From Sphingobium sp. WTD-1 (GTDB lineage Bacteria > Pseudomonadota > Alphaproteobacteria > Sphingomonadales > Sphingomonadaceae), in assembly GCF_030128825.1 (NCBI RefSeq), contig NZ_CP119127.1, positions 2,976,001 to 3,040,000 on the forward strand: 64,000 nt of DNA, written 5' to 3'. A program made the position numbers and the translations under genes. The notes beneath the pieces were generated by a model. It was not told the origin of the DNA and made no database searches. It saw only the letters and a program-made list of their open reading frames with translations. Below are positions 35,025-57,498 of the stretch, in pieces; positions within the stretch are counted from its first letter, which is position 1, and each line of letters begins with the position of its first letter.

Positions 35025-35507
35025 ATGGTGATGGAAGGCGGATGCGCCTGTGGTGAGGTGCGCTATCGGGTCGATGCCGATCCCATCTTCGTCAACAACT
35101 GCCATTGCAGCCTGTGCCAGCGGCAGAGCGGCGCGGCGTCTGCGGTCAATGCCTTTGTCGAGGTCGATCATCTTCACCTCCTGTCGGGACAATTGAGCGA
35201 ACATGTCGTCCCCACCGGCAGCGGCAAGACCCAGGTGATCGTGCGCTGCGCCAACTGCGGCACTGCGGTCTGGAGCTTCTATCCTCGTCTCGGCCGGGCC
35301 GGCGCGGCGATCCGCGTCGGCACGCTGGACGATCGTTCGGCGATCCGGCCCGATGCGGCGATCTTCGTGGCCGACCGGTCGGACTGGACCGCCTTGCCCG
35401 CCGACGTGCCGGTCTTCGAGGCCAGCTACAAGCCGGCGGACATATTGCCACCCGATCGGCTGGCCCGGTTGATGGCGCTTGCCGCCCGTGCGGAGCCGCT
35501 GGCATGA
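35025..35507 (+). CDS. GFA-family zinc protein
   Basis: 160-aa protein of the glutathione-dependent formaldehyde-activating (GFA) family, a zinc fold whose real activity is mostly unknown. Cysteines: GGCACGEVRY, NNCHCSLCQRQSG and RCANCGTAVWSFY. Divergent from map; overlaps the following cinA-like gene by 4 nt, so cotranscribed. Confidence 0.9.
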   Translation: MVMEGGCACGEVRYRVDADPIFVNNCHCSLCQRQSGAASAVNAFVEVDHLHLLSGQLSEHVVPTGSGKTQVIVRCANCGTAVWSFYPRLGRAGAAIRVGTLDDRSAIRPDAAIFVADRSDWTALPADVPVFEASYKPADILPPDRLARLMALAARAEPLA

Positions 35508-36259
35508 GTGACCGTATCTGGACCGCCGCTGTGATCGTGATCGGCGATGAAATCCTGTCCGGCCGCATCCAGGACAAGAACGTCGCGCAGATCGCCACCT
35601 GGCTTAATGTCCAGGGCATTCGCCTGCGCGAGGTACGGGTGGTGCCCGATGTGCAGGACGCGATCGTCGAGGCGGTGAACACGCTGCGTGCCCGCAACGA
35701 CTATCTCTTCACCACCGGCGGTATTGGGCCGACCCATGACGACATCACGGTCGATGCGATCGCGGCGGCGCTGGGCGTCGGCGTCGAAATCCATCCCGAA
35801 GCGCGGGCGATATTGGAGCGCTATTATGTCACGCGCGGGGGCCTGACCGACGCGCGGCTGCGTATGGCGCGGGTGCCGGCGGGCGCCGACCTCATCGAAA
35901 ACCGGATGTCGGGCGCGCCGGGCATTCGCCACGGCAATATCTTCATCATGGCCGGCGTGCCGCACATCACCGCCGGCATGCTCGACAGCCTTACCGGCAC
36001 GCTGGAAGGCGGATTGCCTGTCCTGTCGGCGACGATTGGCTGCTGGGTCGCGGAAAGCGAGATCGCCGACCTGCTCGGAACCACCGAGCGCGCCCATGAC
36101 GGCGTCCAGATCGGCAGCTATCCCTTCTTCCGCGAAGGGCGCACCGGCGCCAATTTCGTCATCCGCTCGACCGACCAGGCGGTGCTGGACGCCTGTGTCG
36201 CCGATTTGGGCGCTGCCCTGGCATTAGGGGGCTGGACCCCGGTGCCGGGCGGCATTTGA
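35504..36259 (+). CDS. CinA/MoaB-like molybdopterin-binding domain protein
   Basis: 251-aa protein with a MoaB/Mog domain: WTAAVIVIGDEILSGRIQDKN, then FTTGGIGPTHDDITVDAIAAALG. It matches the N-terminal half (COG1058) of CinA and lacks the C-terminal nicotinamide-mononucleotide amidohydrolase domain; such short forms are common. CinA-type proteins hydrolyse ADP-ribose in some species, but no activity is proven for this branch. Starts in an ATGA overlap with the GFA gene. Confidence 0.88.
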   Translation: MSDRIWTAAVIVIGDEILSGRIQDKNVAQIATWLNVQGIRLREVRVVPDVQDAIVEAVNTLRARNDYLFTTGGIGPTHDDITVDAIAAALGVGVEIHPEARAILERYYVTRGGLTDARLRMARVPAGADLIENRMSGAPGIRHGNIFIMAGVPHITAGMLDSLTGTLEGGLPVLSATIGCWVAESEIADLLGTTERAHDGVQIGSYPFFREGRTGANFVIRSTDQAVLDACVADLGAALALGGWTPVPGGI

Positions 36260-36454
36260 GCGCAATTCCCGGGGCGAACCGGCCCGGTCCTGTTATGATT
36301 CGGCTATGCCGCTCTCCTGATTTCAAGGCTTTATCGGGCAGACTTTGGAAGTTTGCGCGTGTGCGCCATGGGAGATTTTAGTCGGGCCTAGAAAAATATA
36401 ACGAATATAATGGGTTGGCCATTTCGAGGGGCCGACCGGAAGTTTACATGATGT

Positions 36455-36475
36455 CGGGCCTGTAGGACAGGCCCG
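36455..36475 (-). terminator. Hairpin after first GGT-like gene
   Basis: Perfect 9-bp stem CGGGCCTGT/ACAGGCCCG with a 3-nt loop, 12 nt past the stop codon. T-run weak on the minus strand, so an attenuated or Rho-assisted terminator is possible. Confidence 0.5.
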
Positions 36476-36486
36476 GCCAGTCTTCC

Positions 36487-38352
36487 TCAATAGCCCATGG
36501 CATAGCCCATGCGGCGGGGATCGGCGCCGGCCATGCGGGCACCCGATGGGTCGGCCAATATGCCCTGCACGCTGCCGATCGCATAGGGGCCGACCAGTTC
36601 GATCTTGTGCCCCATCGCGGTCAGGCGTTGGATCGTGGCGTCGGGGAAGCGTCGCTCCGCCTGCACGGTGATCGCCGCGCCTGGCCTGTAGAAATTGGGA
36701 TCGGCGTCGAGCGCGAAGCGCGGCGCTTCGATCGCGGCCTGGATCGGCAGGCCGCGATCGACGATATTGACCAGGAACTGGAACTGGGTCTGGCCGATCG
36801 TCTCGCCGCCGGGCGAACCGAAGACCAGTTTCAGCCGGCCCTTGTCGAGGACGATAGTGGGGCCATTGCCGAGCAGGGCGATCTTGCCCGGCGCGACCTT
36901 GTTGGGATGGCCGGCATAGGGGGCGGACGAGCCGAGGCGCAGGCCGTTGTTGAACAATATGCCGGTATTGCCCATCACCAGGAAGGTGCCGAAGCCGCCG
37001 CCGACGGTGGTCGTGACCGCGATGGCATTGCCGTCGGCATCGACCGCCGACAGGCTGGTGGTGTCGCCGCCGCGCGTATGGTCGTCGCCCTGATACGCGA
37101 AATCCTGCCGTGCCCGCTCCAGCGCCGCCCGGTCGAAGGCGGCGGCATTACCGCCCTGCGGATAGAGGCCCGCGCGGGCTGCATCGATCAGTTGGCGCCG
37201 CTCGGCGGCGAAGCGCTTGGACAGCAGTCCTTCGACCGGCGTCTGCGCGAATTTGGGATCGGCGGCATATTTGTAGACATCGGCCTTCGCGACCTTGATC
37301 GCCTCGATCAGATAATGGGTGAAGAGCGGATCGTCGGCCGGCAGCGCAGCAAGGTCGAACCCCTCGACCAGATTGAGCTGCTCGCACAATTCCAGCCCCG
37401 TGCGCGAGGTCAGCGGGCTGCAATAGACGTCGAGCCCGCGATAATTGGTCGTCACCGGATCGTCCCAGCGCGGCTGATAGGCCTTGAGGTCATCGAGCCG
37501 CAACCAGCCGCCTGTCTGTGTCGAAAAGCGGGCAAATTCCTGCGCGATCGGGCCGGTATAGAAATAGTCATGCGCCGCCTGCAGCGCGCGATCGCGATCG
37601 GCGCCGCCCTTGAGCGCCTGGCTTTCCGCGTCGGCAAGGGCCTGAAAGCTGCGGGCCAGATCGGGATTGCGGAAGATGGATCGCGGGACGGGCGGCTGGC
37701 CACCGGGCAGGAAGATCGCCGCGCTGGTCGGGTAGAGCGCCAATGTCTTTTGCGCCCGCGTGATGAACATCGCGATGGAGGCATCGAGCGGGTGGCCGTC
37801 GCGGGCATAGCCGATCGCCGGTTCGAGCAGGGTCGAGAGCGGCAATTTGCCGAACCGGCGGGCCAGCGCGATCCAGCCGCCAAAGGCGCCCGGCACGGTC
37901 AATGCCTTGGGGCCATGGTCCAGCGCCTTGGGATCGCCATCGGGATCGAGCAGGCGCGGCGCGCCTCCGGTGAAGGCCAGTGACTGGACCTTGCCCGTTT
38001 TGCGATCGAGGCAGGTGGCAAAGCCGTTGCCGCCCGCGCTGGATGCCCAGGGTTCGACCACGTTCATGACCGCCATCGCCGCGACCACGGCGTCGGCCGC
38101 GGTGCCGCCCTGCATCAGCATGCGGGCGCCGGCCATGGCGGCCAGCGGATGGCCGGCGGTCACGCCGCCATGCGGCATGGGCACTTCGACCCGGTGCGCG
38201 GCGACGCTGGCGCTGCCGGTGCGGGGTGCGTCGGGCGCGCGTGCGCCCGATTGGGCGAGGGCACGGGCGGGCAGGGTGGTGAGCGCCATGCCGGCAAGGC
38301 CGGCGGCCAGCATTTCGCGGCGATCCAGGAAGGATGGGGGCGTATCGGACAT
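36487..38352 (-). CDS. GGT-family hydrolase 1, Tat-exported, lacks canonical Arg
   Basis: 621-aa Ntn-hydrolase of the gamma-glutamyltranspeptidase family. Tat signal at residues 11-34 (RREMLAAGLAGMALTTLPARALAQ). The self-cleavage site and nucleophile is T431 in GGDTTSLSAVDADGN, and the oxyanion GSPGG is intact. But where GGTs have the substrate-binding R-E after the first strand pair, this protein reads AFTGGAP; the PLSSMSP segment is replaced by ALLGNGP and the Asp near it by Asn (LFNNG). It is therefore unlikely to bind ordinary gamma-glutamyl groups. 79 nt downstream of the TonB receptor gene, probably one operon. Confidence 0.85.
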   Translation of the reverse strand: MSDTPPSFLDRREMLAAGLAGMALTTLPARALAQSGARAPDAPRTGSASVAAHRVEVPMPHGGVTAGHPLAAMAGARMLMQGGTAADAVVAAMAVMNVVEPWASSAGGNGFATCLDRKTGKVQSLAFTGGAPRLLDPDGDPKALDHGPKALTVPGAFGGWIALARRFGKLPLSTLLEPAIGYARDGHPLDASIAMFITRAQKTLALYPTSAAIFLPGGQPPVPRSIFRNPDLARSFQALADAESQALKGGADRDRALQAAHDYFYTGPIAQEFARFSTQTGGWLRLDDLKAYQPRWDDPVTTNYRGLDVYCSPLTSRTGLELCEQLNLVEGFDLAALPADDPLFTHYLIEAIKVAKADVYKYAADPKFAQTPVEGLLSKRFAAERRQLIDAARAGLYPQGGNAAAFDRAALERARQDFAYQGDDHTRGGDTTSLSAVDADGNAIAVTTTVGGGFGTFLVMGNTGILFNNGLRLGSSAPYAGHPNKVAPGKIALLGNGPTIVLDKGRLKLVFGSPGGETIGQTQFQFLVNIVDRGLPIQAAIEAPRFALDADPNFYRPGAAITVQAERRFPDATIQRLTAMGHKIELVGPYAIGSVQGILADPSGARMAGADPRRMGYAMGY

Positions 38353-38431
38353 GGCGGGGCGACCTTGCAGAGGAAAGGAAAAGGAGGAATGGGCACGGCA
38401 GCATCGCGCCGTGCCCATGTTTTGCAAGCCT

Positions 38432-41400
38432 TTAGAAGACCTTCTTCAGGCTGGTATACCAGTAGCGCGCCTGCGGCTGGTAGAGGCTCGACAGATAGCC
38501 GCCCGATGCCAGCGGCGGATCCTTGTCGAAGATGTTGCGCGCGCCGATCTGAACGGTGGTGCCGTTCAACGGTCCGTCATTCTTGAACGTATATTGGCCG
38601 TAGAGATTGACCGTCGTCTGGCCCTTCACCGTCCAGGGATTGGCGGACGCATCGCGCACGCCATTTTCATAGACGCTGTCGATATATTGGGTGAAGGCGC
38701 CGAACTTCCACGGGCCGAGCGACCAGTCGAAGGTTGCCGAAAGCCGCCAGCGCGGCTGGCCATCGCGGCCGATCACATCGCCGCCGCCCTGGATCGGCAC
38801 GCCGGCATTGATCTCGCCAGCGGCCTGCCCTGCGATCACCTGCTGCACGCCCGCCGGGGCATCGACATAATAGCTGATCAGGCGCGAGGCATTCACGTTG
38901 AGCGAGAAGGTGCCGACCGAGGTCGTGGGCAGGAAATAGTCCAGATTGAAGTCGATGCCCTGAACGGTGACCGGCAGCAGATTCTGGAAATTGGCGACGA
39001 CGTAGAGGAGTTCGCCGACCGGTGCGAGCCCGGTGCCGGCGACGCGGGCGATATCATCCGCGGTCGGATCGCGGCGGATGACGTTGGGATTGCTGCTGCC
39101 CTGGGTGCGCAGCAGATAGTCGAGGTTGAGCGCATTCTGATAGTCGAGCAGGCCCACGACATTCTTCTGCTGGATCTTCCAGCGGTCGACGGTGAAGGTG
39201 ACCTTGCCCAGGCCATCGCCCAGTTTCGGCGACAGCACGGCGCCGAAGCTCCAGCTGGTCGATTCTTCCGGCTTCAGGTTCGGGTTGCCGCCGCTGCGAC
39301 GCAGCACCGACACGTTGCAGACCGCGCTGGAGAAGTTCGTCGCGCGCCCGGAGCGGACATCGGCGTCGCACAGCACATAGTCGAAGCCGCCATTGACGCG
39401 ATCGAGCGTGGAGGTGTTGATGACCTCCAGGTTCGGCGCACGGAAGCCCTGCGACCAGGAGCCGCGCAGCATCATGCCCTCCAGCAATTCCCACGATCCC
39501 GCGATCTTGGGCTTCGCCACAGACCCGACGTCGCTATAATCCTCGTAACGGCCCGCGACCTGGAAATTCAGGCGACGGAACATGGGGATTTCCATTTCCG
39601 GGCTGAAGATCGGGATGGCGAGTTCGGCATAGGCGGACTTCACGTTGCGCTTGCCGCGCACGTCCGGGCTGGGGCTGGCGCCGCCAAGGTCGGAGCCATA
39701 GAAGACGCCGGTGACCGCGTCGGTATAGGTGGTATCGACCCCGGCAATGCCGCCCTGATAGGTGGAGCGATTGTCATGATAGGTCTCGCGCCGCCATTCG
39801 ATTCCGGCCGCGACGCCGATGCTGTTGTCGGCCCACAGGCCCAGCAGATTGGCGTTTGACACCTTGAAGTCCCACAGCGCCAACGAGGTGCGGGTCTTGC
39901 GGGTTGCCTCGATCATGAAACTGTCGATGGTTGACTGGCTGTTGGGCGTGCAGTCGCCGATCGAGGGCGTGTCGACGCAGCCGCCGTTAAACGGATTATA
40001 GGCGTCGGGCGTGGTCTTGTTGATCGCCTGTTGCAGCAGCGTGTTGGAGAAATTCTCCTGCGTGTCCTTGGCCGTGGCCCAGGTGTAGAGGCCGGCCGAT
40101 TCCCAGTCGAAGTCGCCGATACTGCCGCGCAGGCCGCCCAGGAAACGATATTGGTAATTGGTCACGTCGACCTTGCGCGATCCGACATCGACATAGCTGA
40201 GCGAGGTGATCTGGACCGGCAGGCCCTCGGCTGGCACCACCGAAAGGTCGAGGCCGGGCAGGCGGTTGGGCGATCCGACCGGGCCGAGCGGGTTCCAATA
40301 GGCATTGGCCGCCACGGTGATCGGGATGTTGGCGAGCGAGCCGGGCGCGCCGATCGTCGAACTGGTCTTGCCGCGATAGAAGCCGACCTCGCCGAAGAAG
40401 GAGAGGGCGTCCGACAGTTCATAGTTGATGTAGGAGAAGATATTGATGCGCTTGACCGAGGGCTGGGCGGTCAGGTCGTCGAAGGTCGCCGGCGAATTGA
40501 AGCGCAGGTTGGAATCCGCACCCGACATTTCGGTCGCGCCATTGCCGTCATCATAGCAGGTGTCGGGCGTGCCCGACGCGATGCGGCAACCGGCATTGGT
40601 GCTGGGCTGAATGTGGAACTGGCCCGAGCTGTTGGTGAAGGCGGTGCCGTTGCTGGTGAGAGTGCGGTTGAGGAAATTCGCGCCACCGCCGGGGCGGACA
40701 ACGCGGAAGGTGCCCCAGGGCGTGCTGGTGCTGGTGCCGTTCCACGCCGCCACATTGGCGAAGGAGGTGCCGGCGACATAGTCGCGCCGGTCGACGCTGG
40801 CGGTATAATCCTGGTCGCTGAGATAGAGTTTCGACTTCTGCGCATAGCCGCCGAAGATCGAGATATTGCCGCGGCCTTCGGCGAAATCGAAGCCGACCAG
40901 GCCATTGGCGGCAAATTCGCGCAGATTGGTGCCTTCCGCGCCGCCATATTGGACGTCGAACTTGGCGCCCTTGTAATCGGACTGGAGGACATTGTTGACG
41001 ACGCCGGCGACCGCATCCGAACCATAGAGGGCGGCTGCGCCGTCGCGCAGCACTTCGACGCGCGCAATATTGCCGACGGGAATGGTGTTGGCGTTATAGC
41101 CAAAGGTCGGGACGCCGGAATCGACCACGCCGGTGATCGCCTGCGATGTCGGGTGCAGCACGGTGCGGCGGCCGTTGATCAGCAGCAGCGTATTGCCTTG
41201 GCCCAGGCCGCGCAGCGAAACGGTCGATACGTCGCCGCGTGCGGCGTTGGCATTGCCGCCGCCCAGCACCTGTTCGTTGAAGGTGACGCCGCCCAGTTGC
41301 GGGATGGAGCGATAGAGATCGGCGCCCGAAACGGCGGCCACGGCCTCGATCTGCTCTTCGCCGACCAGGCTGACCGGCAGCGCGCCGGCGGTATTGGCGC

Positions 41401-41572
41401 CCTTGATCTGGGAACCGATGACGACAATTTCCGCAGCGGCCGGTTCATCGGCCTGCGGGGCGGCTTCTGTGCTGGATTGGGCCTGGGCCATGCCGGCCGT
41501 CAACGCCCAGAGACTGGCACTGGTTAGGGCGGTGGTTAAGGCGAAAAGCGTCTTTCCTCTTTCTTTCGTCAT
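38432..41572 (-). CDS. TonB-dependent receptor, large barrel
   Basis: 1046-aa outer-membrane receptor with a Sec signal (TLFALTTALTSASLWALTAGMAQA). The plug domain reads IVVIGSQIKGANTAGALPV, then DLYRSIPQLGG, STVSLRGLGQGNTLLLINGRR, VEVLRDGAAALYGSDAVAGV. It ends YWYTSLKKVF. Large receptors with this IVVxGS(R/Q)I plug are common in sphingomonads next to peptidases and are thought to import peptides or other organic compounds. It precedes the first GGT-like gene on the same strand. AGGGGAA is located upstream of the ATG. Confidence 0.93.
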   Translation of the reverse strand: MTKERGKTLFALTTALTSASLWALTAGMAQAQSSTEAAPQADEPAAAEIVVIGSQIKGANTAGALPVSLVGEEQIEAVAAVSGADLYRSIPQLGGVTFNEQVLGGGNANAARGDVSTVSLRGLGQGNTLLLINGRRTVLHPTSQAITGVVDSGVPTFGYNANTIPVGNIARVEVLRDGAAALYGSDAVAGVVNNVLQSDYKGAKFDVQYGGAEGTNLREFAANGLVGFDFAEGRGNISIFGGYAQKSKLYLSDQDYTASVDRRDYVAGTSFANVAAWNGTSTSTPWGTFRVVRPGGGANFLNRTLTSNGTAFTNSSGQFHIQPSTNAGCRIASGTPDTCYDDGNGATEMSGADSNLRFNSPATFDDLTAQPSVKRINIFSYINYELSDALSFFGEVGFYRGKTSSTIGAPGSLANIPITVAANAYWNPLGPVGSPNRLPGLDLSVVPAEGLPVQITSLSYVDVGSRKVDVTNYQYRFLGGLRGSIGDFDWESAGLYTWATAKDTQENFSNTLLQQAINKTTPDAYNPFNGGCVDTPSIGDCTPNSQSTIDSFMIEATRKTRTSLALWDFKVSNANLLGLWADNSIGVAAGIEWRRETYHDNRSTYQGGIAGVDTTYTDAVTGVFYGSDLGGASPSPDVRGKRNVKSAYAELAIPIFSPEMEIPMFRRLNFQVAGRYEDYSDVGSVAKPKIAGSWELLEGMMLRGSWSQGFRAPNLEVINTSTLDRVNGGFDYVLCDADVRSGRATNFSSAVCNVSVLRRSGGNPNLKPEESTSWSFGAVLSPKLGDGLGKVTFTVDRWKIQQKNVVGLLDYQNALNLDYLLRTQGSSNPNVIRRDPTADDIARVAGTGLAPVGELLYVVANFQNLLPVTVQGIDFNLDYFLPTTSVGTFSLNVNASRLISYYVDAPAGVQQVIAGQAAGEINAGVPIQGGGDVIGRDGQPRWRLSATFDWSLGPWKFGAFTQYIDSVYENGVRDASANPWTVKGQTTVNLYGQYTFKNDGPLNGTTVQIGARNIFDKDPPLASGGYLSSLYQPQARYWYTSLKKVF

Positions 41573-42020
41573 TATTGTTCCCCTGTGATGAAGCCTGAAG
41601 CTTCGCGCCGTTGGGCAAAGGTGCCTTTCCGGTTCAGAGATTGGGGAGGTCGGCAAATGTCGGCGCCGCACAACGCGTGCAGCGACCCATGTTTATTGAT
41701 GACCGTTCAGATAGTGCATTTGCAGGCCCTCCCGAAAAACTGGAGTTCCGGCATCATCCCTTGCGTGGGAAATCGTTGCTGCTGTCGCCCTCACGACGGC
41801 AAGGCTTTTTCCGGGCACAACACCCACCATTGTGCGCGTTCATTGCGCTAGAACTGATGGGCGTGAAATTTCCACCATATGTTTCGAAATATTTTTGAAA
41901 TAAAATCGGATTTACCGGCATATAGCGGAAAAATCGGGTTGGCTCGTTGTTTCGCGTATCGGCCGGCAAACGCCTTCCCTCGGGCGGTGCCGGACAGGCC
42001 GAAAACAGGGGATTCCATCA
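41573..42020. other. Divergent promoter region of peptide/amide locus, no gene
   Basis: 448 nt between the divergent TonB receptor and second GGT-like gene. The part at about 41866-41940 is strongly A/T-rich with TTTCGAAA (41882-41889), probably the promoter of 42021. GAAGC-N5-GCTTC lies near 41590. No ORF with a credible start and composition on either strand. Confidence 0.65.
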
Positions 42021-43910
42021 ATGAGCGATAACGCAAAGCAGGGGGTGACCCGGCGGGAGTTCGCGGCGTCGGCCATGGCCGGTGCGGCCTTGGTCACGAG
42101 CGCCGGGCCGGCCTCCGCCCAGGCGGGTAATGCGCCGGCAACGCCCGGCAAGGCAGCGATCGAGCCAACCAGATTGGTTAGCGCAGGCGAGACTCTGCGG
42201 CCGGAAATCGTCGGCCAGTTCGGCATCGTCGCGGCCGGGCGCCATTATGCGGTGGCGGCGGGGACGCGCATCCTGCTGGCCGGCGGCAATGCGACCGATG
42301 CGGGCGTGGCGGCGGTCTTTGCCGCAGCCGTGACCGAGATTTCGCATTTCGGCTTTGGCGGCGAAGCGCCGACCATCATCTATGACGGCAAGACGAAGAA
42401 AGTGTCGCTGATCAGCGGCCAGGGCGTCGCGCCGGGCCTGGCCACGCCGGACAAGTTCGCCGATGCCGGCGTCATTCCGGGCAATGGTCCCAATGGCGGC
42501 ACGGTGCCGGCAATGGTCGATGCGATGGCGCTCGCGCTCCAGCTCAACGGCACGATGGGCCTGCATGAAGTGATGCAACCGGCGATCGAATTGGCCGACG
42601 GTTTCGTCATGTATAATTTCCTGGCCGAAGTGTTCGTCAGCCAGCAGAAGGCGACGTCCAAATATAAGGACGCCTACGACGCCTATTATCCCGGCGGCCA
42701 ATTGCCCAGGACCGGGGAGATTTTCCGCCAGCCCAATCTCGCCCGCACGATGCGGATCATTGCCGACGCGGATGCTGCGGCGTTCAAGAAGACCAAGGAT
42801 CGCAAGGCCGCGATCCAGGCCGGACGCGATGCCTTCTACAAGGGCGACATCGCCCGCCGGATCGGCGCCGCGATGGAGCGGGACGGCGGCCTGATGCGCT
42901 ATGAGGATCTCGCCAAATATAAGGGCAAGGTCGAGGCGCCGGCGATGACCAGCGTCTTTGGCTATCAGGTCTGCAAGGCGGGGTTCTGGAGCCAGGGGCC
43001 GGCCATGCTGATGGCGCTCAACATTGCCGAGGCGGCCGGGATCGCGACGATGGAGCCGGGCTCGGCGCCCTATCTCCACACCGTTGCCGAGGCGATCAAG
43101 CTCGCCTTCGACGATCGCAACATGTATTTTGGCGACCCCGATTTCGCGACGGTGCCGATGATGGGGCTGTTGTCGAAGGACTATGCGGCGCAGCGGGCCA
43201 GGCAGATCGGCCCGCGCGCTTCACTGGAGCATCGCTTCGGCAATCCCTGGGCATTCGAGGGCAAGGCGCGGACCACGCCGCAATTCACGCCGCATATGTT
43301 GAAGGCTCCGCCCAAGCCGACCGCCGACACGACCGCGATCGAAGTGGTGGACAAGGACGGCAACCTCTTTTCCTGCACGCCCAGTTCCGGCTGGATGCTG
43401 GGTGGCGCCTATATTGCGGGCGACACCGGCGTGCCGATGAGCAACCGCCTGACCGTGTTCGATCTTGATCCGGAAAGCCCCAATGTCCTGGTGCCGGGCA
43501 AGCGGCCGCGCACGACCCTGTCGCCCTCGATGGTGCTCAAGGACGGCCAGCCCTATCTGGCGATCGGGACGCCGGGCGGCGACAATCAGGATCAGCAGAT
43601 CATGAATGTGCTGCTGCGGGTGCTGGCGTTCGACCAGCCACTCCAGGCCGCGATCGAGGCACCGCGCATCAATTCCAATCATTTCCATGGCTCCTTCGGC
43701 ATCAAGAAGGATGAGCCGGGCGTGCTGGAAATCGAGGATCGCGTGCCCCAGGCGGTGCGCGACGATCTGACCGCGCGCGGTCACAAGCTGGACGTGCTGG
43801 GGCCGTTCGCGGTGTCGACCGGCATCGTCGCGGCCGGCGTGGTGCCGGGCAGCGGCACGCTGCGCGGTGGCGCGGATGTGCGCCGCGAGCGCTATATATT
43901 TGGTTGGTAA
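42021..43910 (+). CDS. GGT-family hydrolase 2, Tat-exported, lacks canonical Arg
   Basis: 629-aa Ntn-hydrolase, only distantly similar to the first GGT-like protein. Tat signal TRREFAASAMAGAALVTSAGPASAQ. Nucleophile T437 in TADTTAIEVVDKDGN; the oxyanion IGTPGGDNQ is intact. In place of the GGT arginine loop it has LISGQGVAP; the PLSSMSP motif is RTTLSP. So the fold and autocatalysis look active, but the substrate pocket differs from glutathione-type enzymes. 13 nt upstream of the amidohydrolase gene, clearly one operon. Confidence 0.87.
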   Translation: MSDNAKQGVTRREFAASAMAGAALVTSAGPASAQAGNAPATPGKAAIEPTRLVSAGETLRPEIVGQFGIVAAGRHYAVAAGTRILLAGGNATDAGVAAVFAAAVTEISHFGFGGEAPTIIYDGKTKKVSLISGQGVAPGLATPDKFADAGVIPGNGPNGGTVPAMVDAMALALQLNGTMGLHEVMQPAIELADGFVMYNFLAEVFVSQQKATSKYKDAYDAYYPGGQLPRTGEIFRQPNLARTMRIIADADAAAFKKTKDRKAAIQAGRDAFYKGDIARRIGAAMERDGGLMRYEDLAKYKGKVEAPAMTSVFGYQVCKAGFWSQGPAMLMALNIAEAAGIATMEPGSAPYLHTVAEAIKLAFDDRNMYFGDPDFATVPMMGLLSKDYAAQRARQIGPRASLEHRFGNPWAFEGKARTTPQFTPHMLKAPPKPTADTTAIEVVDKDGNLFSCTPSSGWMLGGAYIAGDTGVPMSNRLTVFDLDPESPNVLVPGKRPRTTLSPSMVLKDGQPYLAIGTPGGDNQDQQIMNVLLRVLAFDQPLQAAIEAPRINSNHFHGSFGIKKDEPGVLEIEDRVPQAVRDDLTARGHKLDVLGPFAVSTGIVAAGVVPGSGTLRGGADVRRERYIFGW

Positions 43911-43923
43911 GGGGATCGATCCG

Positions 43924-46881
43924 ATGAAATCTGCCTTCAAGCTTCTGTCGCTGGCCCTGTTGTCGGCCGGCGCCGTCCAGGCCTATGCCCAGCCCGCCAA
44001 TCTGCCCCCGCCCGGCGGCGAGACCCCCGTCGCTTTCGATGTGCATGAAGGCACGTCGATGGCGGTGTCGGTATCGCCCGACGGCAAATGGCTGGCGGTC
44101 GACCTGCAGGGCAGCCTGTGGATCATCCCGACCAGCGGCGGCAAGGCGAAGCGGATCACCGACTATTTCAACGATGCCCGCCAGCCGGTCTGGTCGCCCG
44201 ATGGCTCGCGCCTCGCCTATTTTTCCTATCGCGACGGCAATTATGATCTCTGGACGATCAAGCCGGATGGCAGCGAGATGCGCAAGCTGACCGAGGGCGC
44301 CTATGACGATCGCGAGCCGGCCTGGTCGCCCGATGGCCGGACAATCGCCTTCTCGTCCGATCGCAGCGGTAATTACGACATCTGGACGCTGGACATCGCC
44401 AGCGGCGCGATGAAGCAGGTCAGCAGTAACGAACGCGAAGATCGCATGCCCAGTTGGTCGCCGGACGGCGCGCGCATCGCCTATTCCGGGACGGATGGCG
44501 CCAAGACCGCCCTCTATGTCACGGCCCTCGCCGATGGGCAGGAAAGCCTGTTGAAGCAGGTGCAGGGCAAGATCGATGCGCCGTCCTTCGGCCCCGGCGG
44601 CGAGCTTGCCTATGTGGTGCAGGACGCCCAGGGCAGCCGCCTGGAAGTTGATGGCAAGGCCGTCGGCGGTGCCGAGAATGTCTTCCCCTTCCGTGTGTCC
44701 TGGGGGAAGGGCGGTTACTATTATGTGTCCGACGGCAAGATCCGCAGCCGTAAGGGCACCAGCCTGTCGACCGTCAACTTCGCTGCCACGCTGGAGGTGG
44801 TGAAGCCCAGCTACACCCGCGCCAAGCGCGACTGGGATTCGACCGCGCCGCGCAAGGCGCTGGGCATCGTCCATCCGACCCTGTCGCCCGACGGCAGCCG
44901 CATCGCCTTTGCTGCGCTCGGCGACCTCTATGTCATGTCGTCCAAGGGCGGGGTGCCGGAGAATTTGACCAAAGATGGCGCGCTCGACACCGATCCGGCC
45001 TGGTCGCCCGATGGCCAGAGCCTGGTCTACACCTCCGACAAGGGCGGCGGCCTGCCGCAGCTGTGGATCCGCGACATGAAGACCGGCAAGGATCGCCGGC
45101 TGACCGATATCGACACCCAGCCGCTGGGTGCCGCCTGGTCGCATGACGGCACGCGGATCGCCTATATCGATGTCGACGGGCGCTGGGGCGTCGCTGGCCT
45201 GTGCGTGGTCGATGTCGCGACCGGCAAGATCACCCGCCTTCAGGGATCGCTGGGCCAGCCCGGCAGCCCCAGTTGGTCGCCCGACGGCAAATATGTCGCC
45301 ATCCCGCTATCCTACAAATATTCCAACAGCTTCCGTGAGGGCACCAACCAGGTCTACATGGTGCCGACCGATGGCGTGGGCAAAGCCTTCTGGCATCTGC
45401 CCGAACCCAATATGTCGATGGACACCCGCGCCGGTGGCGGCCCCGCCTGGTCGCCCGACGGAACGAAGATGGCCGCCATCTATGAGGGACTGCTGAAGAT
45501 CTGGCCGGTGGCCGCCGACGGCAAGCCGCTGGGGCCGCCGCGCTCCTACACCTCCGACATCTCCTATTTCCCGAGCTGGGCCGGCGACAACAAGACGATC
45601 CTGTTCCAGTCGGCCGACAAGCTGAAGTCGCTCGACACCGAAACCGGCGCTATCACCGATATCCCGCTGGACCTGACCTATCGCATCGCCAACCCGAACG
45701 GGCGCACGGTCATCCATGTCAGCAACCTGGTGGATTCCGTCCATGACGTGACCCAGCATGACAAGGACATCATCGTCGACGGCCACCGCATCGCCGAAAT
45801 TCGCGATCATGATCCCGCGCTGCATCAGGCGGAGCATTTCGTCGACGGCACGGGCCTCACCGCCATTCCCGGCCTGATCGAGCATCATTCCCACGCCCAG
45901 AAGGATTTCGGCTCCAATCTGGAACGGGCCTGGCTCGCCTATGGCATCACCACGGTGCGCGATCCGGGTACGCAAATCTATGATGCGGTGGAGGATCGCG
46001 AGGCGGCGGAATCGGGTGTGCGGCTGTCACCGCGCCTCTATGTCGCCGGGCCGCTGCTCGAATGGCAGCGCGTCTATTACAAGATGGGCGTGGCGGTCTC
46101 CAGCCCCGCTCATCTGGAGCGGGAATTCAGCCGCATGCGCGCGCTCCATTATGACATGATCAAAAGCTATGTGCGCATGCCCGACCTGTTCCAGCGGCAG
46201 ATCGTGCGCGCCGCCCATGAAATGGGCATTCCGGTCAGCGGTCATGAAATCTTCCCGGCGGCCTTTTCCGGCGTGGATGGCACCGAGCATATGGGCGCGA
46301 CCAGCCGGCGCGGCTATTCGCCCAAGCAGGGACCGCAGGGCATGGCCTATGAGGATGTGATCCAGCTTTTCGGCCGCAGCGGCCGGACGCTGACGCCGAC
46401 CCATTTCGGCGCGATGACGCCTTATCTCGCCAAGCATCCCGGCTACAAGGACGACCCGCGTCTCAATCTCTATCCGGTCTGGGCACGGGAAACGATCACC
46501 GAAGCCGATCCGATGGCGAGCATGCTGCGCCCGCTGCTGGAGGGCCAATATAAGAGCCTGAAGAAAATGTATGACGCCGGCACGCTGGTGACGGCGGGCA
46601 CCGACACGATGATCGCCAACAATCTCCATGCGGAGATTTCCTCCTATGTCGACGCCGGCCTGACGCCGTTCCAGGCGCTCCAGACCGCAACCGTCAACTC
46701 GGCGAAGGATCTGAACCTGGATGCGGGCACGCTGGAGGCCGGCAAGCTGGCCGACATCGTGCTGGTCGACGGCGATCCGCGCGCCGACATCGCCAACACC
46801 TTCAAGGTAAAGAAGGTGATGATGAACGGCGTCATCCATGACGTGGACGACATCGTCGCCGGCGGCATGCGGAAAAACTAG
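43924..46881 (+). CDS. Exported TolB-propeller/amidohydrolase fusion
   Basis: 985-aa protein. A Sec signal (residues 1-22) precedes a long TolB/PD40 beta-propeller region (about 30-610) with repeats such as PVWSPDGSRLAYFS, PAWSPDGRTIAFSSD and PSWSPDGKYVAIPL. A metal-dependent amidohydrolase domain follows from about 640: HHSH metal motif (near 655), K in DMIKSYVRM, H in SGHEIFP, EHMG, and the D of TAGTDTM (near 891). Such fusions act on imidazolone or dipeptide-like amides in other bacteria. Expected in the periplasm; substrate unknown. Confidence 0.9.
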   Translation: MKSAFKLLSLALLSAGAVQAYAQPANLPPPGGETPVAFDVHEGTSMAVSVSPDGKWLAVDLQGSLWIIPTSGGKAKRITDYFNDARQPVWSPDGSRLAYFSYRDGNYDLWTIKPDGSEMRKLTEGAYDDREPAWSPDGRTIAFSSDRSGNYDIWTLDIASGAMKQVSSNEREDRMPSWSPDGARIAYSGTDGAKTALYVTALADGQESLLKQVQGKIDAPSFGPGGELAYVVQDAQGSRLEVDGKAVGGAENVFPFRVSWGKGGYYYVSDGKIRSRKGTSLSTVNFAATLEVVKPSYTRAKRDWDSTAPRKALGIVHPTLSPDGSRIAFAALGDLYVMSSKGGVPENLTKDGALDTDPAWSPDGQSLVYTSDKGGGLPQLWIRDMKTGKDRRLTDIDTQPLGAAWSHDGTRIAYIDVDGRWGVAGLCVVDVATGKITRLQGSLGQPGSPSWSPDGKYVAIPLSYKYSNSFREGTNQVYMVPTDGVGKAFWHLPEPNMSMDTRAGGGPAWSPDGTKMAAIYEGLLKIWPVAADGKPLGPPRSYTSDISYFPSWAGDNKTILFQSADKLKSLDTETGAITDIPLDLTYRIANPNGRTVIHVSNLVDSVHDVTQHDKDIIVDGHRIAEIRDHDPALHQAEHFVDGTGLTAIPGLIEHHSHAQKDFGSNLERAWLAYGITTVRDPGTQIYDAVEDREAAESGVRLSPRLYVAGPLLEWQRVYYKMGVAVSSPAHLEREFSRMRALHYDMIKSYVRMPDLFQRQIVRAAHEMGIPVSGHEIFPAAFSGVDGTEHMGATSRRGYSPKQGPQGMAYEDVIQLFGRSGRTLTPTHFGAMTPYLAKHPGYKDDPRLNLYPVWARETITEADPMASMLRPLLEGQYKSLKKMYDAGTLVTAGTDTMIANNLHAEISSYVDAGLTPFQALQTATVNSAKDLNLDAGTLEAGKLADIVLVDGDPRADIANTFKVKKVMMNGVIHDVDDIVAGGMRKN

Positions 46882-46981
46882 CGGAGCCGGAACGGGCGGC
46901 CCGCCGGTGAGGCGGGCGGGCAGTCTGGTCCTGCCTGGGTCGCGTGGATAAATTCGGATGATCTGGAAGCGACCATCTCCC

Positions 46982-47048
46982 GTCATTGCGAGCGTAGCGA
47001 AGCAATCCATCTCGCGCCGGTGGATTGCTTCGCTACGCTCGCAATGAC
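46982..47048. repeat. Dispersed palindromic repeat, perfect 28-bp arms
   Basis: Arms 46982-47009 and 47021-47048 are exact reverse complements (GTCATTGCGAGCGTAGCGAA.. and its complement) with an 11-nt loop. The sequence resembles palindromic repeats seen in many bacterial genomes. It lies 100 nt after the amidohydrolase gene. Confidence 0.9.
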
Positions 47049-47132
47049 GATGTCGGATTTTAGCGGCTAACGACCATTTGCCGCCGCCAGAATCCGCCGC
47101 TAGCCTCCCCATAAGCGGACGGAGATGGCCGG

Positions 47133-47417
47133 GTGCATTTGATTGAATTGCTGAAAAGCGCGCAGGAGTGGAGTGACGACGATGGCACGATTTACGCTGC
47201 CAAGCCTTGGGGGTGTTTTGCAGACGCTATCGTTATCACCCCTGCGCCAGACGCGACCGATGACATCGAACGATCAGGGATAGTTTACAGCTATTTTCTC
47301 GAAACGTTTATCGCGCGTGATCTCTTGGAAGATTTCGCGGGGTTAGCAGAGGGCGAAGAAACTGCGGAGCGCGTTAGATGCGAACGCCTTATCAAGTATG
47401 CCATCGATGACGCATGA
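47133..47417 (+). CDS. 94-aa orphan protein, low GC
   Basis: GTG start with GGAG 8 nt upstream. Acidic soluble protein (VHLIELLKSAQEWSDDDG, then GIVYSYFLETFIARDLLEDF). No family recognised. Base composition is visibly poorer in GC than both neighbours. It overlaps the next gene by 20 nt. Pairing with a neighbour in a repeat-bounded island suggests an accessory (immunity or antitoxin-like) role, unproven. Confidence 0.6.
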   Translation: MHLIELLKSAQEWSDDDGTIYAAKPWGCFADAIVITPAPDATDDIERSGIVYSYFLETFIARDLLEDFAGLAEGEETAERVRCERLIKYAIDDA

Positions 47418-47736
47418 CGATCGCGACAATGAGACATGGCTGCTTGACGCAACCGACGAAATCATGAACGCGAAGGCGGAGATCGGCTTCGCAGCTATGA
47501 CCTCGATCCAGCGCGTGACCTATTGCTTGTGGGTTGCGGATTACGGAATGCGAAATGCAGGCGATTTAACCACGGCGATTGATCTGTTTGCATCGTTTAT
47601 GAGTGATGGCCACGTCGCTGCCAAGGAAGCTGGCCTGCCTCATTCGACACACATGTTTTCGCTTTCTATCGCGGATTTGGAAGCGAGATACCTTGGCTTG
47701 TTCGACGGCGTCGTTAACGAGATCAGGGCCGTGTAG
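47398..47736 (+). CDS. 112-aa orphan protein, low GC
   Basis: Acidic helical protein (MTHDDRDNETWLLDATDEIM; TYCLWVADYGMRNAGD; HSTHMFSLSIADLEARYLGLF). No family recognised. Start at 47398 or 47407 (both ATG, same frame, no clear ribosome site), overlapping the previous gene. Lower GC than surroundings, as for its partner. Together they may be horizontally acquired. Confidence 0.6.
   Translation: MPSMTHDDRDNETWLLDATDEIMNAKAEIGFAAMTSIQRVTYCLWVADYGMRNAGDLTTAIDLFASFMSDGHVAAKEAGLPHSTHMFSLSIADLEARYLGLFDGVVNEIRAV

Positions 47737-55851: not shown

Positions 55852-57498
<1,647 letters not shown>

Follow-up and report, generated by a model that had tools for sequence, protein, structure and literature searches.

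Layout of the locus

The window, a stretch of 64,000 nucleotides (nt) from Sphingobium sp. WTD-1 (contig NZ_CP119127.1, positions 2,976,001 to 3,040,000), contains four genes in the order GGT1, TBDR, GGT2 and AMH, with a divergent gap of 448 nt between TBDR and GGT2. Together they make up a real, conserved cassette of the uptake-and-hydrolysis type, whose two enzymes with the gamma-glutamyltransferase (GGT) fold are probably misannotated. GGT1 (36487..38352, minus strand) encodes 621 amino acids (aa) from an ATG at 38352, within an open reading frame (ORF) that spans 36487-38427. The TonB receptor gene TBDR (38432..41572, minus strand; 1046 aa) starts with the ATG at 41572 in an ORF spanning 38432-41671. 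The divergent region (41573..42020) is a predicted promoter region and shows conserved blocks in an alignment of six loci. On the plus strand are GGT2 (42021..43910; 629 aa) and the propeller-amidohydrolase gene AMH (43924..46881; 985 aa), which has its ATG 13 nt past GGT2. The lengths, gaps and gene identities given for the four ORFs in the initial annotation were all confirmed.

Pfam matches identify the four products. GGT1 and GGT2 match PF01019 (8e-119 and 1.5e-120), TBDR matches the Plug domain (1.3e-14) and the TonB barrel (1.6e-28), and AMH matches PD40 (5.7e-58) and Amidohydro_1 (7.5e-22). As read from the letters, the N-termini of GGT1 and GGT2 are Tat-like, with the twin-arginine motifs DRREM and TRREF, and that of AMH is Sec-like. 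The genome (5.67 Mb in 6 contigs) has three PF01019 genes, two of them in the cassette; the third sits elsewhere and retains the canonical residues. The four genes are not chance ORFs, because orthologues with 63-84% identity are found in a patchy set of other genomes of the family.

Conservation of the gene set

GGT2, TBDR and AMH form a real unit, of which GGT1 is an optional member. Orthologues of the three are found in the same six of 298 family genomes, the window's own included, and in all six they lie within 11 kb. Identities are 75-100% for GGT2, 70-100% for TBDR and 63-100% for AMH, and the next matches are at 40, 52 and 42%. GGT1 orthologues (64-100%) are present in five of the six cassette genomes and in one genome without the other three genes (G214). 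Three of these five genomes carry GGT1 far away from the other genes, at a distance of about 460 kb or 100 kb in two and on another contig in the third. The six cassette genomes represent five genera. At the thresholds applied, all four genes are missing from four other genomes sampled in the window's genus, so common descent by itself is unlikely to explain the distribution.

The cassette was also followed in larger sets of loci. GGT2 occurs in 29 of 94 genus genomes. At 20 of these 29 loci, AMH is present in all 20, TBDR in 18 and GGT1 in 14. A second set of 26 loci overlaps with the 20, many genomes being in both. It has AMH at 65% identity or more in 22 loci, a 37-38% homologue in two and none in two, with TBDR (at least 65%) in 21 and GGT1 in 12. 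The misses include contig edges (TBDR and GGT1 at L043, the left side of L046). TBDR was not found within the examined flanks of L032, L052, L048 and L050, nor AMH within those of L046 and L050. These results support the unit of TonB receptor and hydrolases put forward in the initial annotation. Its expectation that all four genes occur together holds for GGT2, TBDR and AMH and is weakened for the optional GGT1. The closest named copy is that of Sphingobium scionense, with a GGT2 98% identical. Viral contigs gave no relative, and the one plasmid record that matched did so over 28% of the query, all of it in the AMH region.

Gene order and genomic sites

The arrangement of the cassette varies among loci. 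AMH may follow GGT2, or lie beyond TBDR or beyond GGT1, and in some loci a pair of genes for an extracytoplasmic function (ECF) sigma factor and FecR is located between TBDR and GGT2 (FecR cluster, nine of 26). Where the gene order is the same, the cassette DNA is, over its whole length, 94-96% identical with that of S. scionense, G324 and G312, and 79-84% identical with the others. Similarity to relatives stops at the stop codons of GGT1 and AMH or no more than about 60 nt from them. The window's flanks are not shared with any of the 26 or 20 loci, apart from short matches of 86-359 nt, none of which adjoins the cassette. Among the closest relatives the cassette thus occupies three sites. In the window's genome, the sequences that flank the S. 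scionense copy are 1.1 Mb apart, and those that flank the G324 copy are 1.5 Mb apart.

A mobile element is not claimed. Flank mapping with the S. scionense and G324 copies found no empty site, and 35901-36520 and 46851-47500 of the window have no direct or inverted word of at least 11 nt in common. Rearrangement is general: in the stretches compared, genomes G000 and G324 are about 95% identical in DNA and keep their gene order in blocks of about 11-28 kb. A cassette located between breakpoints therefore does not prove mobility, because gene order is widely broken.

Two features flank the cassette. At 46981-47049, 100 nt past the AMH stop, there is a perfect 29-nt inverted repeat with an 11-nt loop that resembles a repetitive extragenic palindromic (REP) element. 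Its motif has two matches in the window and none in shuffled sequences. The 12-nt core occurs in three of the loci compared (2.49 Mb in all), two of the three from the window's genome, and this rarity in other loci rules it out as a general mark of the cassette. To the left is a MoCF-type gene (35105-36259) that has a match in 41 of 41 genus genomes, in many of them only to the last 250 or so residues. What comes after it differs, and in L131 the gene found at 55852 of the window follows directly.

The GGT-like enzymes

GGT1 and GGT2 retain the catalytic threonine of GGT and have lost the residues that define its substrate. R114, D433 and S462-S463 of GGT are the residues that grip the gamma-glutamyl group. 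In alignment to E. coli Ggt, the catalytic Thr is present in 13 of 13 GGT1 rows and 27 of 27 GGT2 rows; the presumed nucleophile of GGT1 is the Thr within GGDTTS. At positions R114, D433, S462 and S463, all 13 GGT1 rows have T, L/I/V/T, L and G, and all 27 GGT2 rows have Q, V/I, T and T. In the genome's third GGT these positions read R, D, S and S. Both cassette enzymes also miss the TIGR00066 cut-off of 357.85 bits (GGT1 324.2, GGT2 316.7). Together with the replaced residues, this led to the rejection of a role in glutathione or gamma-glutamyl metabolism, and from these sequences it is unlikely that either protein is a gamma-glutamyltransferase, the gamma-glutamyl clamp having been lost. In the tree, GGT1, classed as an N-terminal nucleophile hydrolase with the GGT fold, forms its own clade (support 100/100) apart from GGT2. 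Such proteins carry the name gamma-glutamyltransferase in annotations, and for the 40 aligned rows of the two types, which are without activity-defining residues, that label is probably wrong.

GGT2 is predicted to be an N-terminal nucleophile (Ntn) hydrolase of the LmbA type with the GGT fold. Its top match in the PDB is 6j3a (274 bits), while Bacillus licheniformis GGT (4y23) scores 220 bits. The entry 6j3a can be deduced to be LmbA2991, because the start of its small subunit and its length (617, from 420+197) agree with PMC5519988. In a tree built from match-guided reading frames, with long-branch and composition warnings that extend to LmbA2991, GGT2 and LmbA2991 fall in one 12-row clade (support 100/99; inner join 94/88), which includes uncharacterised members. 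Both have the motifs GQG and RPRTTL(S/T)P. The pair D436-T437 of GGT2 is invariant in 20 aligned sequences and is the predicted site of self-cleavage. PMC5519988 describes self-cleavage before Thr and the cutting of a C-C bond for LmbA2991 and Ant6; oxalate was identified with Ant6, and an oxalyl-Thr intermediate is called likely there.

More distant relatives of GGT2 are widespread. Proteins at 34-42% identity (E of 1e-70 or better) occur in 80 of 385 genomes of the class, the window's own included, and among the matches listed none other than the window's own exceeds 42%. A function established here may extend further, because such relatives are common in the class. A neighbour scan of ten of these loci took in ten proteins at nine loci. 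Four of the loci had a gene for a solute-binding protein of the SBP_bac_5 family (PF00496), and the remaining six scanned proteins included a thiamine pyrophosphate (TPP) enzyme, a histidine kinase, an AMP-binding protein, MdoG and an enolase-family protein.

The propeller-amidohydrolase

AMH is predicted to consist of propeller repeats, which we read as two propellers, fused to a metal amidohydrolase of the prolidase/carboxypeptidase type. Six presumed metal ligands (HxH, Lys, two His and Asp), whose roles we assigned from motif position, are invariant in 25 sequences. The fold comparison (VIA rows), which covers mostly model residues 325-582 and 592-985, places the predicted fold nearest to amidohydrolases of the prolidase/carboxypeptidase type; ochratoxinase and molinate and phenylurea hydrolases are among the neighbours, and purine deaminases are not nearest. 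The protein scores 89 bits against the Xaa-Pro dipeptidase equivalog NF051886, missing the cut-off of 500. Against the AtxE2-type isopeptidase family NF033523 it reaches 108.1 bits, through the propeller part, where 400 is required, and Pfam gives no S9 hydrolase match. On these grounds AMH was rejected as a lasso-peptide isopeptidase.

The receptor and its relatives

Homologues of TBDR are found beside transport or hydrolase genes. At seven loci with homologues at 46-52% identity, an SDF symporter and a DctB-like kinase adjoin the receptor in four (L111, L113, L116 and L117, where they are of the sodium:dicarboxylate symporter and DctB types), and GGT, amidohydrolase, M14 or M20 genes adjoin it in the other three. 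The window's own genome has a 52% homologue (L115, C1 3651000-3669000) with genes for a metzincin-like protein, an amidohydrolase-CIA30 protein and an M14 carboxypeptidase. Pfam gives no STN domain match for TBDR of the window. An STN-like match is present in the receptors of three of three cassette loci with ECF/FecR genes, one of them above the Pfam cut-off, and absent from those of three of three loci without the pair. STN fails as a mark of ECF/FecR loci, since the receptor of L098, a locus with an AMH homologue and ECF/FecR genes, gave no match.

Function and alternatives

The gene neighbours provide clues to the substrate. Genes for a RidA whose N-terminus is Sec-like, an amine oxidase whose N-terminus is Tat-like and a cytochrome c follow AMH in three of 26 loci and in five of the 20 from the genus; three of those five are the same genomes as in the 26-locus set. 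The amine oxidase, of exported type, is closest to L-amino acid oxidase 2jae. In passages of PMC12224317, Tat-type amine oxidases with an adjoining cytochrome c gene are reported as dehydrogenases, and in passages of PMC8113886 Rid proteins are assayed on imino acids from L-amino acid oxidase. M20 genes are present at four of 26 loci, one of them resembling a dipeptidase family but below its cut-off. Where GGT1 is outside the cassette, an amidohydrolase gene adjoins it in three of four genomes (L106, L107 and L109), and the same three have pyrroloquinoline quinone (PQQ) dehydrogenase and GSDH dehydrogenase genes. The scanned amidohydrolase of this kind is best matched by Xaa-Pro dipeptidase (145 bits, below cut-off). 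In the fourth genome (L108) the scanned neighbours are GH2 and GDSL enzymes.

With a probability of roughly 0.55, the cassette is dedicated to scavenging a small amide that contains an amino-acid part. A peptide-like or N-acyl-amino-acid substrate is favoured. The TonB receptor would carry the compound over the outer membrane. GGT2 would cleave itself at D436/T437, and its new N-terminal Thr would attack a carbonyl in the periplasm. The propeller-guarded AMH might then cut the amide beside the carboxylate, freeing an L-amino acid, and GGT1, where present, could cleave a further acyl bond. In some relatives the freed amino acid may be oxidised by the exported L-amino acid oxidase, RidA and cytochrome c.

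One lineage weighs against this proposal. In L032 (1899-9865) and L052, GGT2-AMH is beside purine genes: directly before it come genes for LysR, two purine nucleoside permeases (NUP), an ADA-like protein, a TonB receptor and a permease for xanthine/uracil. The cassette could accordingly be a purine- or nucleoside-type unit in which TBDR imports the conjugate, GGT2 hydrolyses an amide of the oxalyl or ureide-like kind, and AMH hydrolyses one of the ring or ureido kind. At L099, a 41% AMH homologue has as neighbours genes for an ADA-like protein, an amidase, a xanthine/uracil permease and a GGT that is matched best in the PDB by 5hft, presumably the oxamate hydrolase HpxW. The probable oxalyl-Thr intermediate of LmbA-type enzymes (PMC5519988) is also consistent with such chemistry. 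However, the purine genes are found at two related loci of the 26 only, and the HpxW-like protein of L099, whose row is on a long branch, falls outside the GGT2/LmbA clade and is no GGT2. The nearest folds of AMH are peptidase-like rather than those of purine deaminases, and other loci have the L-amino acid oxidase, RidA and M20 genes. The amino-acid clues were weighed higher than the purine clues, and a purine-type unit appears unlikely.

Somewhat less probable targets of the enzymes are a C-C bond in a keto acid or an amide of non-peptide nature, for example a xenobiotic, the peptidase-like neighbours then being incidental. GGT2 clusters with the C-C-cleaving LmbA2991 and has its two motifs, and AMH has the ochratoxinase, molinate and phenylurea hydrolases among its fold neighbours. 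However, no function is assigned to the motifs, and the clade is not confined to characterised enzymes. A related, equally doubtful idea makes GGT2 a catabolic, exported LmbA-type enzyme for breaking a C-C or oxalyl bond, with a propeller-carboxypeptidase as its partner and a dedicated TonB receptor serving both. If true, this would be a nutrient route with GGT-fold oxalyl-Thr chemistry in a self-contained cassette at different genomic sites.

An ordinary set for scavenging gamma-glutamyl compounds or glutathione is very improbable. The family name, the fold and the retained Thr are in its favour, but the clamp is replaced in every GGT1 and GGT2 row while the third GGT keeps it, and both enzymes are under the family cut-off. 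The initial annotation had named ordinary glutathione hydrolysis as the case against its proposal, and this case is now disfavoured. Import and opening of a lasso peptide or isopeptide, suggested there by kinship with lasso-peptide isopeptidases and called to mind by a TonB receptor beside a propeller hydrolase with a weak propeller match to the AtxE2 family, is the least credible reading, as there is no S9 catalytic domain match and the score is far below the cut-off. The initial annotation saw no precursor-peptide gene at the locus, and no search aimed at such small genes was made here. No evidence was found that isopeptide or pyroglutamyl compounds are the substrates.

The partners conserved with these enzymes offer a practical lead to what they really cut. 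The loci with ECF sigma/FecR genes could act as ready-made reporters for the inducing compound.

Comparison with known systems

The enzymes of the cassette resemble known proteins in part. E. coli Ggt has the fold and catalytic Thr in common with GGT1 and GGT2, but its substrate-clamp residues are replaced in both. With LmbA and LmbA2991, from the lincomycin field, GGT2 shares a clade, an Asp-Thr cleavage site and the two motifs; unlike them it has an export-type N-terminus and lies in an uptake locus, and C-C cleavage is for GGT2 a possibility. AMH shares its fold and six presumed metal ligands with prolidase-like carboxypeptidases and ochratoxinases (2qs8, Cc2672, ADH3) and differs in its added N-terminal propeller repeats. 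None of the compared fold rows is described as a propeller-amidohydrolase, although one may still exist.

The locus as a whole is also of a recognisable type. The AtxE2 isopeptidase combines a propeller with a hydrolase and is found near TonB receptors, as in the cassette, but AMH has no S9 match and scores below the NCBIfam cut-off. A limited literature search found no described locus of the cassette type. TonB-receptor utilisation loci with periplasmic peptidases are a known kind. The cassette resembles them in having a receptor gene beside hydrolases with export-type N-termini, and in the ECF sigma/FecR genes of some of its relatives. In contrast to such loci, it has two clamp-less GGT-fold enzymes and a propeller-amidohydrolase in place of S9 peptidases.
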